From an uncultured Christiangramia sp. (lineage in GTDB: Bacteria > Bacteroidota > Bacteroidia > Flavobacteriales > Flavobacteriaceae), in NCBI RefSeq assembly GCF_913046405.1, contig NZ_CAJWRQ010000013.1:1-41401 (forward strand): 41,401 bases of DNA, given 5' to 3'. Positions 5,723-20,208 of this stretch are shown here, piece by piece. The first letter of the stretch is position 1; each line of letters begins with the position of its first letter. The position numbers and the translations under genes were made by a program. A model generated the notes under the pieces. That model had not been told where the DNA came from, searched no databases, and worked only from the letters and a program-made list of their open reading frames with translations.

Positions 5723-6303
5723 TGAATTCTATCAAATTAGTTTTTGCAACACATAATAAAAATAAGTTCAGGGAAATCCAGGCTTTAGTTCCAGATCATA
5801 TTAAATTACTAAGTCTGCAGGAGATTGGATGTAATGAAGATATTGAAGAAACCGGTGATACAATCGACGCCAATGCCATCATAAAAGCAGAATATGTAAG
5901 AACTCGATATGGTTATGACTGCTTTGCTGATGATACCGGATTGGAAGTTGAATCCCTGGCGGGAGCTCCAGGCGTTTACTCTGCCAGATATGCTGGCGAA
6001 ATTAAAGATGATAGCGCAAATCGCAGAAAGCTATTGAATCAGCTCGAGGAGCGTGATGATCGCACTGCAAGATTGAAGACTGTGATCGCATTAAATTTAA
6101 AAGAGAACGAAAATCTTTTTACAGGGATTTGTGAGGGTTCGATCACTAGGGAAGAACGTGGAGAAAATGGTTTTGGATATGACCCTATTTTTCAACCCAA
6201 GGGATTTGATAAAACCTTTGCCGAGATGAATCTGGAAGAAAAATCGGAAATTAGCCATCGTGCAAAAGCTTTCAAAGAGCTCATAGACTACCTATCTATT
6301 TAA
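5722..6303 (+). CDS. rdgB: RdgB/HAM1 non-canonical purine NTP pyrophosphatase
   Basis: The enzyme hydrolyses dITP, ITP and XTP to monophosphates, keeping deaminated purines out of nucleic acids. The 193-residue protein carries the family motifs: FATHNKNKFREIQAL at the N-terminus for substrate binding, FADDTGLEVESLAGAPGVYSARYAG with the catalytic and metal-binding Asp residues, GENGFGYDPIF and SHRAKAF near the C-terminus. The ATG overlaps the rlmH stop. No terminator is visible after the stop; the next gene has its own promoter and leader. Confidence 0.96.
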   Translation: MNSIKLVFATHNKNKFREIQALVPDHIKLLSLQEIGCNEDIEETGDTIDANAIIKAEYVRTRYGYDCFADDTGLEVESLAGAPGVYSARYAGEIKDDSANRRKLLNQLEERDDRTARLKTVIALNLKENENLFTGICEGSITREERGENGFGYDPIFQPKGFDKTFAEMNLEEKSEISHRAKAFKELIDYLSI

Positions 6304-6337
6304 TATTCAGATATTTAAATAAATTACTATAAATTAG

Positions 6338-6364
6338 TTTGCTTCAGATTTAAACGTATCTTTG
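6338..6364 (+). promoter_or_regulatory. Promoter of the DEAD-box helicase gene
   Basis: TTTG at 6338-6341 and TATCTTTG at 6357-6364 match the Bacteroidota -33 and -7 elements. The spacing is 15 bases, shorter than the 19 seen at three other promoters in this window. A start near 6371 would give a leader of roughly 105 bases. Confidence 0.55.
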
Positions 6365-6375
6365 CGGCTTGAAAT

Positions 6376-6466
6376 TCCTCAGGGTGAGGATGTGTTACTG
6401 GAAGTTTAGGTTTAAGTATGTCGATTCGCTTCTTATGTAACACTTACATACGATAATCGAATACTT
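6376..6466 (+). promoter_or_regulatory. Structured 5' leader of the DEAD-box helicase mRNA
   Basis: The leader contains a 6-bp hairpin (TCCTCA 6376-6381 with TGAGGA 6385-6390), an outer stem (AAGTATGTCGATT 6414-6426 with AATCGAATACTT 6455-6466, one bulged base) and an inner perfect 7-bp hairpin (TATGTAA 6434-6440 with TTACATA 6444-6450). A further perfect pair, GTGTTAC 6392-6398 with GTAACAC 6437-6443, uses bases of the inner hairpin, so the two cannot form together. The structure ends 10 bases before the start codon. A temperature- or helicase-sensitive switch is an inference. Confidence 0.5.
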
Positions 6467-6476
6467 ACAAAAAAGA

Positions 6477-8267
6477 ATGAACGCATTCCAAGCACTTGGA
6501 CTGGACGCAGATTTGCTACAGGCCATAAACGACATGGGTTTCGAAACCCCAAGTGAAGTACAGGAAAAATCAATTCCTATTCTTCTATCCCAGGAAACCG
6601 ACCTGGTTTCTCTGGCACAAACAGGAACAGGGAAAACCGCAGCTTTTGGTTTTCCACTTATCCAGAAAATAGATTCGAATTCTAAAAAAACTCAGGCTTT
6701 AATTTTATCGCCAACTCGTGAACTGTGTTTACAGATCACCAATGAGTTAAAGAACTACAGTAAATACAAAAGATCTCTAAATGTGGTTGCCGTTTACGGT
6801 GGCGCTAGTATTACAGATCAGGCAAGAGCGATTGAAAGAGGAGCTCAGATCATAGTTGCAACTCCAGGGAGAATGCAGGATATGATTAGAAGAAATCTTG
6901 CAGATATCTCTTCTATTAACTATTGTGTTCTTGATGAAGCAGATGAGATGCTGAACATGGGATTCTATGAAGACATCAAAAGCATTCTTTCACACACTCC
7001 AAAACACAAAAAGACATGGTTGTTTTCAGCTACCATGCCTAAGGAAGTTGCCAAGATCGCTAAGAAGTTCATGACAGATCCTGTTGAGATCACGGTAGGA
7101 TCAAAAAACATGGGTACATCTAACGTGACTCACGAATACTACCTGGTAAATCACAGAAACAGATATGATGCTTTAAAAAGGCTGGCAGATGCTAATCCTG
7201 ATATCTTCTCTGTAATTTTCTGTAGAACAAAAAGAGATACTCAAAAGGTTGCGGAAAAGCTGATAGAAGATGGTTATAACGCTGCTGCGTTGCATGGTGA
7301 TCTTAGCCAGAACCAACGTGACCTGGTAATGAAGAGTTTTAGAAGCAGACAAATCCAAATGCTGGTAGCTACAGATGTTGCTGCTCGTGGAATTGATGTA
7401 GATGATATCACTCACGTAATCAACTACCAGTTGCCAGATGAAATAGAAACCTATACTCACCGTAGCGGTAGAACAGGTAGAGCTGGTAAGAGCGGTGTAT
7501 CTATGGTGATCATTTCCAAAAGTGAGGTTCGTAAGATCCGTACTATTGAAAAGATCATTCAGCAGAAATTTGAAGAAAAGCAAATTCCTGATGGAAAAGA
7601 GATCTGTAAGATCCAGTTATTCCATCTAGCGAATGATATAAAGAAAACGGAGATCAATCATGATATTGATCCTTATCTTCCTAATATCAATGAGGCTCTG
7701 GAAGATTTCACTAAAGAAGAATTGATCAAAAAATTCTTTTCGGTTGAATTTACTCGTTTCTTTAACTATTACGAGAAAGCTCCAGATCTTACTGCAGAAT
7801 CTGCAGGAGGTAGACCAGAAGTTTCAGAAGGAAATACAAGGTATTTCATAAATGTTGGTTCAAAAGATGGTTATGACTGGAAGAGTCTTAAAGACTTCCT
7901 TACAGGCGAACTAAACCTTGATAGGGACGATATCTTTAAAGTAGACTGTAAAGCAAGTTTTTCTTTCTTTAATACAGACGAGAAGCACGCTGATCTAATA
8001 CTTAAAACATTTACAGAATACCAGCAAAATGGTAGATATGTGAATGTGGAAATCACTAAAGACCAGAAGTCTGATAGCGGCGGTGGTCGTAAAAGAGAAC
8101 GTGGCGGTGGCGGCGGTCGTAAAGGCGGCGGAAAAAGCTTTAACGATAAAGGAAGCTTCAGAAAAAGACGTAGCGGTTCAGATCGAGGAGATAAAAAAGG
8201 TAACCGGAAAGGAAGCCGAAACAAAAATGTCGAGAGTTCTATAAAAAGAAGAAGATCGAAAGCGTAA
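6477..8267 (+). CDS. DEAD-box ATP-dependent RNA helicase (DeaD/CsdA-like)
   Basis: A 596-residue cytoplasmic RNA helicase for RNA remodelling, probably in ribosome assembly and cold adaptation. Seen in order: a Q motif (FETPSEVQEKSIP), Walker A AQTGTGKT near residues 47-54, PTRELCLQI, the VLDEADEML box near 151-159, SATMP, and the second RecA domain ending in HRSGRTGRAGKSG. A DbpA-type RNA-binding domain follows (about 440-520, RYFINVGSKDGYDWKSLKDFL). The last 70 residues are Gly/Arg/Lys-rich and probably disordered. The gene has its own promoter and a long structured leader, and ends at a strong terminator, so it is monocistronic. Confidence 0.96.
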   Translation: MNAFQALGLDADLLQAINDMGFETPSEVQEKSIPILLSQETDLVSLAQTGTGKTAAFGFPLIQKIDSNSKKTQALILSPTRELCLQITNELKNYSKYKRSLNVVAVYGGASITDQARAIERGAQIIVATPGRMQDMIRRNLADISSINYCVLDEADEMLNMGFYEDIKSILSHTPKHKKTWLFSATMPKEVAKIAKKFMTDPVEITVGSKNMGTSNVTHEYYLVNHRNRYDALKRLADANPDIFSVIFCRTKRDTQKVAEKLIEDGYNAAALHGDLSQNQRDLVMKSFRSRQIQMLVATDVAARGIDVDDITHVINYQLPDEIETYTHRSGRTGRAGKSGVSMVIISKSEVRKIRTIEKIIQQKFEEKQIPDGKEICKIQLFHLANDIKKTEINHDIDPYLPNINEALEDFTKEELIKKFFSVEFTRFFNYYEKAPDLTAESAGGRPEVSEGNTRYFINVGSKDGYDWKSLKDFLTGELNLDRDDIFKVDCKASFSFFNTDEKHADLILKTFTEYQQNGRYVNVEITKDQKSDSGGGRKRERGGGGGRKGGGKSFNDKGSFRKRRSGSDRGDKKGNRKGSRNKNVESSIKRRRSKA

Positions 8268-18084: not shown

Positions 18085-19920
18085 TTAGAATTTAAAATTG
18101 ATATAAAAATTAAAATTGATTCCCGGCATCCACCGGTCTTCGACGTTTTGATAGGCTGTATCAAATAAATTGTTTGCTCTTCCGCCCAGCTCCCACTCTC
18201 TTTCCCTGCCCATAGTGTAAGCCAATGCCAGATTGGCTAGAAAATACCCAGGGAGCTCTTCGCTATGATCTGTCCTGGTATATACTAAGCCATTATATAA
18301 AACCTGTATAGAAGGCGTGAAATGATGAAAACTGTAACTCAAATTTCCTGTTGCTTTGTGGAATGGGACGTAAATTAACTGCCTGCTGGTTTCCTGATTT
18401 CTAGAAATTGTATAAGCATAGCTAAGCCTGGCATGGAAGTTTTGATCTTTTGAAAAAGTTTTATTCCAATTAAAAAAAGACTCCAATCCATAGATATTTA
18501 CTTCGTCTTCATTTCCTGGTCGCCATATTCCATCGGTTCCGGGTAACCATCGTATCATATCACTTACGTCATTATAATAAAAAGTAACTCCGGCTTCCAT
18601 ATTTTGAACACTAAACTGGTTCCCAAGTTCAGCCTGTAAAGATTTTTCAGTATTTATGTCAGGATTTCCTGCGGAAGACCAGTATAAATCATTATACGTC
18701 GGAATCCTGAAGTTTTTTGAAGCATTTAATTTCAGCGTATAGAAATCTGTCAGCTCATAATTCACTCCGAGCGAAAATAAGAGCGGACTCTCATAATTCC
18801 CGGTAATTTCCTTTCTAAGTCCCGCTTCATACTGTAAGACATCTGTAATTTGATGTTTTCCCAAAATAGCTGCTGAAAAAATATTCCGGTCGTTATTCCC
18901 AATGTTGCTTCCTTCCCCATCGGTATAGGTGTTTTGAATTACGGTGTTCAGCAGAATATCAGAATTTAGATTATAATCGAGATCGTATTTGGCGATTAAG
19001 CTTTTTGTTACTCCGAAAGAGTAACTATCAGACTCAGTATTCGCAAAATATTTATATTCTTCATTGATAAGAGCTAAACTCGTAGTTTGCTGGAAATCTG
19101 AAAGATCAGCATGCCATTCCAACAAATTTCGATTGTTGAGATCCAGGTATTTGGTTCTGTTTTCTGAAGGACGTATTAAGGAAAAATGACGTTTACCACC
19201 ATAGGTTTCACTAATAAATTTTAAAGTATGGTCTGAATCAATTCTATAACCCAATGCTATATTCACGCTATGATTGTAATACGCTCCATTTAAATTTTCT
19301 CCGCGATCGCCGGGAAACTCATAATTATTGTCGCTACTATTCCTGGCAAGTGCTAAATTTAAACTCCAATTATTCTTAGCCAGTTTAAAATTGTATCGAG
19401 TATCTACTGTATTAAAACTTCCGTACTGCAATAGCAACTGGTGTTCCTGTTTATTTCTAAATGATACTGAATTATTAAAATGAACGCTTCCGCCAATAGC
19501 TCCGGTACCATAAACCACACTACCCCCACCACCCCTAATTGAAATCTGATCATAGGCACCTGTATTCACAGTGTTAAAATCGAGCTGACCATTAAATTGT
19601 GAATTGATATTAATTCCATTCCAAATTACTGCTGTTTGGGATGCAGTAGTTCCTCGAAATGAAGGGGAAGAGACCATTCCACGACCATTTTCCTTGAAAT
19701 AAATTGAGGAATTAAAATTTAAAATATCGGTTAATTGCGGCAGATTCTTTTTAAGTAGGGAGTCTGAAATTTTTGTAATATGCTGACCCGTTGAAAATTG
19801 CTGAAGCTTTACATCACTTAGCTCTACCTCCTGTAGCCAGTGAATGGAATCACTTTGAGCACGAGCTGATATACAGCAAATGCCAATAAGAATTAAAAAA
19901 ATGTAGTTCGTTCTGTTCAT
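18085..19920 (-). CDS. btuB: TonB-dependent cobalamin receptor BtuB
   Basis: A 611-residue outer-membrane receptor. After a signal peptide (ends ISARAQ) comes a short linker, then the plug (about 45-150: LPQTDILNF-like start, SPSFRGTTASQTAVIWNG, and ISIRGGGGSVVYGTGAIGG), then a 22-strand-type barrel with alternating polar and hydrophobic strands, ending in Phe (YINFKF) as expected for BAM recognition. It lacks the CarboxypepD_reg N-terminal domain of SusC types. Substrate is assigned from the cobalamin riboswitch directly upstream and the adjoining btuG and divergent btuFCD genes. Confidence 0.93.
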   Translation of the reverse strand: MNRTNYIFLILIGICCISARAQSDSIHWLQEVELSDVKLQQFSTGQHITKISDSLLKKNLPQLTDILNFNSSIYFKENGRGMVSSPSFRGTTASQTAVIWNGININSQFNGQLDFNTVNTGAYDQISIRGGGGSVVYGTGAIGGSVHFNNSVSFRNKQEHQLLLQYGSFNTVDTRYNFKLAKNNWSLNLALARNSSDNNYEFPGDRGENLNGAYYNHSVNIALGYRIDSDHTLKFISETYGGKRHFSLIRPSENRTKYLDLNNRNLLEWHADLSDFQQTTSLALINEEYKYFANTESDSYSFGVTKSLIAKYDLDYNLNSDILLNTVIQNTYTDGEGSNIGNNDRNIFSAAILGKHQITDVLQYEAGLRKEITGNYESPLLFSLGVNYELTDFYTLKLNASKNFRIPTYNDLYWSSAGNPDINTEKSLQAELGNQFSVQNMEAGVTFYYNDVSDMIRWLPGTDGIWRPGNEDEVNIYGLESFFNWNKTFSKDQNFHARLSYAYTISRNQETSRQLIYVPFHKATGNLSYSFHHFTPSIQVLYNGLVYTRTDHSEELPGYFLANLALAYTMGREREWELGGRANNLFDTAYQNVEDRWMPGINFNFYINFKF

Positions 19921-19964
19921 AATCTGCCGACCTTTATCCCGAAAGTCACTCGATACTAGTTGAA

Positions 19965-20120
19965 ATTCGGGCAGGTCTCCTGGCTCGCGTACTACAATTT
20001 ACCTTCCCGCCTGTTGGCAGTGGTTTGAAGAATAATTGCAGCCACCCAATCGGGCTAAGCTTACAGTTGCGGGAACAGCTCAGGCTATTGATAAAATCTC
20101 TCCTGATTCCCTTTTAATTA
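19965..20120 (-). promoter_or_regulatory. Cobalamin (adenosylcobalamin-class) riboswitch upstream of btuB
   Basis: On the minus strand the segment runs AAAAGGGAATCAGG, AGCTGTTCCCGCAACTGTAAGC, a GCC-bearing stretch, GGCGGGAAGG, and ends in the B12 box GAGCCAGGAGACCTGCCCG (plus 19968-19986). These blocks, in this order, are the conserved core of the cobalamin riboswitch. The B12 box is about 48 bases from the btuB start, so control of translation start or early termination of btuB-btuG is expected; B12 binding should switch the genes off. Confidence 0.95.
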
Positions 20121-20208
20121 ACGCAGAAATAAATCGACGTCAAACCAAAATTTCGAGGCGAAAATAAACAATTAAGTTTGGTAAGTCTTTCAAAAATTTA
20201 AATAATCT

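Follow-up and report, generated by a model that had tools for sequence, protein, structure and literature searches.

The leader of a DEAD-box RNA helicase gene in an uncultured Christiangramia species raises the question of whether the pairings that can be drawn in it are alternatives, only one of which can exist at a time, or parts of one structure, and of what such a structure would do for the gene. The leader lies in a stretch of 41,401 nt (forward strand of contig NZ_CAJWRQ010000013.1), referred to below as the window. A preliminary description had read it as a regulatory RNA with two mutually exclusive folds: a nested hairpin made of outer arms and an inner stem, and a second helix that borrows bases of the inner stem. 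Upon re-reading the sequence we found all three pairings where they had been placed. Between the outer helix and the ATG at 6477 there are 9 nt; the distance of 10 given earlier holds if the last A-U pair is omitted. The parts of the locus, with the helix names used in the text, are as follows.

6357 to 6364, plus strand: TATCTTTG, presumably a -7 promoter box of the Bacteroidetes type, as judged from the consensus TAnnTTTG
6376 to 6390, plus strand: hairpin P0 (6376-6380 with 6386-6390, loop 6381-6385)
6392 to 6398, plus strand: 5' strand of P1, 7 bp with 6437-6443
6401 to 6404, plus strand: 5' strand of P1b, pairing with 6429-6432
6413 to 6426, plus strand: 5' strand of P2, the outer arms (6413-6419 with 6461-6467, 7 bp; 6422-6426 with 6455-6459, 5 bp)
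6429 to 6432, plus strand: 3' strand of P1b, pairing with 6401-6404
6434 to 6450, plus strand: P3, the optional inner stem (6434-6440 with 6444-6450, 7 bp; family core 6434-6437 with 6447-6450)
6437 to 6443, plus strand: 3' strand of P1, pairing with 6392-6398
6455 to 6467, plus strand: 3' strand of P2, within the region that a ribosome would be expected to cover
6468 to 6476, plus strand: A-rich linker to the start codon, read by eye, with no Shine-Dalgarno sequence seen in it
6477 to 8267, plus strand: DEAD-box RNA helicase, 596 aa, with a DbpA-type RNA-binding domain

Among the NCBIfam models the helicase scored highest against CshA (478.7 bits); since the cut-off of that model is 646, we withheld a finer name. 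We infer that the transcript starts at about 6368-6371. The TAnnTTTG motif was present upstream of P1 in 192 of the 196 distinct leaders collected from the Flavobacteriaceae, compared to 14 of 196 shuffled 150-nt upstream stretches (the real stretches differ somewhat in length).

The order of the strands along the leader is P1-5', P2-5', P1-3', P2-3'. P1 and P2 have no base in common and they cross; therefore, the two helices together would make an H-type pseudoknot rather than a choice between folds. P1b continues P1, P2 crosses both of them, and P0 precedes the knot. The claim of mutual exclusion was not confirmed by this reading, as P1 crosses the outer arms without overlap and shares bases (6437-6440) with the inner stem P3 only. 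The 4-bp core of P3 is compatible with six of the seven P1 pairs.

Taken alone, the leader is unremarkable by energy or by chance. Dinucleotide shuffles of the 106-nt leader contained at least one perfect 7-bp helix in 570 of 2000 cases and at least two in 197, while two crossing perfect 7-bp helices were rarer (21 of 2000). The nested fold of the 106-nt leader had a z-score of -1.19 and was equalled by 20 of 200 shuffles; when the first 24 nt of the coding region were included, the values were -2.25 and 5 of 200. Nearest-neighbour energies at 4, 15, 25 and 37 C placed the nested fold ahead of P0+P1+P1b throughout (the full pseudoknot is outside the energy model), so no switch of order between the nested folds is predicted. 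It is the comparison with relatives, not the energy, that makes the structure credible.

Within the genus, helicase loci were found in 23 of 24 genomes and the leader, judged by eye, in all 23; the remaining genome, 73% complete, gave no helicase match. The mean pairwise identity of the 20 distinct same-genus leaders was 0.933, compared to 0.647 for the 80 nt upstream. Beyond the genus, the element was recognised by eye in 30 of 80 named helicase loci, in two main forms. Type A is the form of the window and has a divergent branch, A', while in type B the motif GCCGC(C/T)GGTAT replaces the P0 sequence. Hairpin P0 is almost invariant among type A leaders; several type B leaders have other hairpins instead (e.g., L250, L253 and L255; by eye). 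An extra 5' hairpin, with stems that differ from leader to leader, was seen by eye between the promoter box and P0 in the type A leaders L021, L024, L029, L033 and L037; the window is without it.

Two models of the element were built, R1 from 25 type A/A' leaders and R2 from 13 type B leaders. Of 397 genomes of the family, R1 matched 181 and R2 matched 68 with a threshold of E<=0.1. With E<=1e-3, R1 matched 169 genomes and R2 matched 60 others, giving 229 of the 397 in total (hand count). We fetched 164 loci, made up of 91 of the 181 R1 genome matches, all 68 R2 matches and 5 others, with a few places fetched twice. The helicase gene was directly downstream of the element in 162 of them. The two exceptions (E=0.04 and 0.07) belong to a group of 11 weak matches not situated before a helicase gene (E 0.0013-0.33), which look like noise. 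The genome of the window had no further model match at E<=10. Among 199 family genomes, a match at E<=0.1 was present in 130 of the 184 genomes with the helicase and in none of the 15 without it (hand count).

Outside the family, a search of 246 genomes of the order with R1 at E<=0.01 gave nine matches, five of them in the same family and four weak ones beyond it (E 0.0013-0.0085); three of these four were fetched, with no helicase match found there. The R2 model had no match in 247 genomes of the class. Both searches were run with stricter filters, and that with R2 had no positive control. The absence of the element outside the family is thus only suggested.

The distance from the promoter box to the ATG had a median of 114 nt at 50 loci with the element, compared to 20 nt (range 5-80) at 19 Flavobacteriaceae loci without it; these 19, like types A, A' and B, were sorted by eye. 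When mapped on a quickly built tree of 69 helicases, the presence or absence of the element required seven changes and the types ten in all, far fewer than with shuffled labels. The element is missing in Salegentibacter and Zunongwangia, which adjoin the genus of the window, and in Flavobacterium and Capnocytophaga as a group. Such a distribution fits vertical descent plus losses, with many forks of the tree being weak. The domain make-up of the helicases did not separate loci with the element from those without, as DEAD, Helicase_C and DbpA domains were present in all eight helicases scanned. Since the element is missing from many Flavobacteriaceae that do have the helicase, expression of the gene as such does not require it.

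As a separate observation, the helicase leaders of Sphingobacterium and Mucilaginibacter (L048, L052, L063, L064 and L077) have a box-to-ATG distance of 40-44 nt. Judged by eye, they share a conserved short inverted repeat ahead of the ATG, which may be a leader element of another kind.

Conservation of the helices was assessed by an alignment-free swap test, in which the pairing of a strand with the partner from its own leader is compared with the pairing obtained when strands are swapped between leaders. The test was run on representatives of the 196 distinct leaders, with 22, 43 and 110 leaders retained at identities below 72%, 80% and 90%, respectively. Only one copy of identical leaders was retained; the leader set does not include L261 and L262, which have no helicase, and the swap tests do not include L267/L268. 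For P1, P1b and P2, each on its own, 0 of 20000 permutations were as good as the real pairing at all three set sizes. For P3 the respective numbers were 5828, 615 and 0 of 20000, and a version of the test based on duplex energy (43 leaders) gave 56 of 5000. Three control region pairs had no signal (1074, 1697 and 3305 of 5000). A fourth, in which the P1b 3' region was combined with the 3' tail, had a count of 0 of 5000; we attribute this to its overlap with a P2 strand, hence it is no clean control. In L037, L162, L253 and L256 the anchors of P1 were corrected manually, and the absolute energies of P1 and P1b lean towards the model because anchors were chosen partly for P1/P1b pairing; the P2 strands were not chosen for pairing. 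All 196 leaders had P2 close to the ATG, a position nearly forced by the short region searched.

Pair counts on five MAFFT alignments (A1 to A5) were largely in agreement with the swap test. The structure was paired in 92.8, 90.9, 91.9, 92.7 and 97.1% of cells, respectively, compared to at most 55.5% for versions slid along the alignment, and the covariation score of the true structure was above that of every slid version in all five (type B leaders were counted with helix P2b in A2 and without it in A5). Not every measure favoured the true structure. The number of extra pair types did not rise above shuffles (233, 487 and 400 of 500 for A1, A2 and A3), and a slid version equalled or exceeded the true structure in the count of pairs in which both bases had changed in A1 (6 vs 4, slid by -3), A3 (6 vs 6, +2) and A4 (11 vs 8, -1).

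The inner stem P3 behaved differently in the two types. There was no excess of covariation for it in 33 type A leaders, where 177 of 500 shuffles reached the score. In 30 type B leaders the score of its 4-bp core was reached by none of 500 shuffles, with the version slid by +2 coming close. Several lineages in which P1 and P2 are kept have a weak P3 or none. In view of these mixed results we regard it as an optional, lineage-limited helix. The preliminary description had proposed a search for base changes that preserve both pairings; such compensatory changes were found for P1 and the outer arms, P2, whereas for the inner stem the signal is weak and confined to some lineages. As that description held, the leader is very probably a regulatory RNA of the helicase gene. 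Mutually exclusive folds were rejected as the principal interpretation, since P1 and P2 do not overlap and P3 is weak, the covariation of the type B core notwithstanding. The data support the prediction that the leader folds as P0 followed by an H-type pseudoknot formed by P1/P1b with P2.

One genome, G067, offers a natural rearrangement of the element. Its leader is split by an insertion of about 165 nt in loop L1 (L267:1540-1703). Before the insert are P0, P1-5' and P1b-5'; after it are P2-5', P1b-3', P1-3' and P2-3', so that all strands of the pseudoknot are kept. The insert is one long hairpin (-49.8 kcal/mol, z-score -7.35, 0 of 200 shuffles as good) with two partial relatives in the same genome (84% identity over 57 nt and 70% over 131 nt), and looks like a small MITE-like repeat element. 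Since the insert is itself a strong hairpin, the pseudoknot strands could still meet, and the arrangement is compatible with both predicted helices forming in the same molecule. A tandem copy of the element in G067 was rejected, because the DNA has one element split by an insertion.

What might such a leader do? In Flavobacterium johnsoniae, structure between -20 and +20 reportedly tunes and lowers initiation (PMC6847099), and mRNAs of this species are without Shine-Dalgarno sequences (PMC6847099; PMC9976891, on bS21 autoregulation). With Shine-Dalgarno pairing not used in the phylum, ribosome landing would depend on an unstructured start region. In the proposed mechanism, P1 and P1b would form a stem whose loop pairs, as P2, with the nucleotides shortly upstream of the start codon. 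With P2 formed, its 3' strand would block the landing site of the ribosome; with the knot opened, translation would start. The position of the P2 3' strand at the ribosome site, together with the effect of structure in F. johnsoniae, suggests that the formed pseudoknot should hold translation down. The link to a single gene and the RNA-binding domain of its product make the helicase the first candidate for opening the knot, and, with less certainty, the regulator may be the helicase acting on the pseudoknot in its own mRNA, in which case the supply of the enzyme would follow the load of structured RNA in the cell.

The predicted helices, their crossing arrangement and their exclusive place before the helicase gene are supported by the data, and the leader probably controls the amount of helicase made. 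The full reading, a lineage-specific cis-regulatory pseudoknot in which P2 blocks ribosome landing and its opening, perhaps by the helicase, permits translation, seems to us reasonably probable on the comparative evidence. Its stronger form, that the leader is a gauge of helicase activity, with the pseudoknot remodelled by the gene's own helicase and synthesis tracking the free unwinding capacity, is put forward tentatively as a possibility. If true, it would describe a feedback circuit in which an RNA knot serves as both sensor and valve, kept in much of the Flavobacteriaceae and cleanly lost elsewhere.

Other functions of the leader have to be weighed against the translational pseudoknot. 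DEAD-box helicases are often cold-induced, P3 is able to form in the window and overlaps P1, and there is some P3 covariation in type B along with the weak duplex-energy signal (56/5000). Thus, the pseudoknot and the nested hairpin (P2+P3) might alternate, with cold shifting the equilibrium between them, as is said of the cspA leader of E. coli. The cyanobacterial helicase CrhR is expressed in a temperature-dependent and autoregulated manner (PMC3485376, as summarised in its abstract). We nevertheless consider a temperature switch unlikely: several lineages with P1 and P2 have P3 weak or absent, the type A leaders gave no excess of P3 covariation, and the nested fold and P0+P1+P1b did not change places between 4 and 37 C (in an energy model that does not cover the pseudoknot). 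A leader that shields the 5' end of the mRNA from nucleases, with unwinding exposing the mRNA and no direct gate on translation, would agree with an element whose first base is some 10 nt or less from the inferred transcript start, with the additional hairpin seen by eye before P0 in many type A leaders, and with a helicase that, below cut-off, is most like the degradosome helicase CshA among the NCBIfam models. For such protection, however, a plain 5' hairpin would suffice, and the crossing helix P2 that reaches towards the start codon is left unexplained; we find this reading quite unlikely.

Riboswitches often contain pseudoknots, as do leaders to which ribosomal proteins bind, which would suit an element that senses a ligand or a protein other than the helicase. 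Riboswitches, though, are usually found upstream of more than one gene of a pathway, while this element was found tied to one gene, and types A, A' and B have little unpaired sequence in common; we judge a riboswitch-like function very unlikely. Finally, the conservation could come from a coding or DNA-level function, such as an upstream peptide, an attenuator or a protein-binding site. In the window an ATG at about 6390 does open a frame of 16 codons (6390-6440), but the frame is not conserved: among 114 type A/A' leaders, 29 are without the ATG motif, 32 have a stop after three codons and 29 keep the 16. A leader peptide was rejected on this ground, and an attenuator was rejected because no terminator-like site was found within the leader. 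Compensatory changes across the strands argue for RNA pairing rather than for any function of this class, which we regard as highly improbable. None of these readings replaces the translational pseudoknot as the one we prefer.

Likeness of the leader to 23S rRNA, which would explain binding of the helicase, was considered as well, in a comparison of sequence words only. The longest word in common with a same-genus 23S locus was 9 nt (174 of 200 shuffles as long) and the longest antisense pairing was 10 nt (74 of 200), so that both mimicry and antisense pairing were rejected. TGTTCG, the loop word of helix 92, is present in 8 of the 196 leaders.

With respect to known systems, E. coli csdA/deaD and cspA are cold-shock genes with long leaders, that of cspA being said to change its fold with temperature; the element described here has no sequence or Rfam match to these leaders, and no alternative fold was shown in it. 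A search of the window at 6250-6600 against Rfam gave no match at E<=5, and six divergent loci gave only two sub-threshold matches, both on the minus strand of L242. Neither Rfam nor the open-access literature searched yielded a leader of a Bacteroidetes helicase gene. Such a leader is likewise absent from the consulted portions of five papers on new bacterial RNAs (PMC2864571, PMC11109978, PMC6429828, PMC8632094 and PMC7247131), in one of which an upstream-frame motif of Bacillales is described before hflX (PMC8632094).

Among the closest parallels are the autogenous leaders of flavobacterial ribosomal-protein genes (S4, S15 and S16 candidates; PMC7247131), which, according to the portions consulted, are likewise structured, limited to one lineage and inferred from covariation, and which also precede one gene or operon for an RNA-binding protein. 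They differ from the present case, in which the gene codes for a DEAD-box helicase, the core is a predicted H-type pseudoknot that extends to the start codon and no likeness to rRNA was found. Synechocystis crhR is also a bacterial RNA helicase gene, post-transcriptionally autoregulated and temperature-responsive; however, it belongs to another phylum, and the abstract of PMC3485376 names no conserved leader structure. The 5' elements reported in Flavobacterium psychrophilum (PMC9723704) are, in the portions consulted, similarly flavobacterial, conserved in the family and absent from Rfam, but they precede pheA, hisG, ftsY, acsA, alaS and rimP rather than a helicase gene, and the word "helicase" does not appear in the main text of that paper, to which the check was confined. 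Lineage-specific structured leaders are therefore known as a kind, while the pseudoknot design and the helicase gene are new as far as our searches go.

Little is known of post-transcriptional control in this phylum, in which ribosomes work without Shine-Dalgarno pairing, and the element would add a clearly structured RNA family to it. A direct test of how a bacterial cell sets its RNA helicase level would also be offered, a question made testable by natural knock-outs, in the form of relatives whose leader is about 20 nt long, and by the natural loop insertion.

Elsewhere in the window we observed an ordinary Cobalamin riboswitch (RF00174, 92.8 bits) at 19953-20164 on the minus strand. It is located just upstream of a minus-strand open reading frame at 18085-19920 whose product reads, by eye, like a TonB-dependent receptor.
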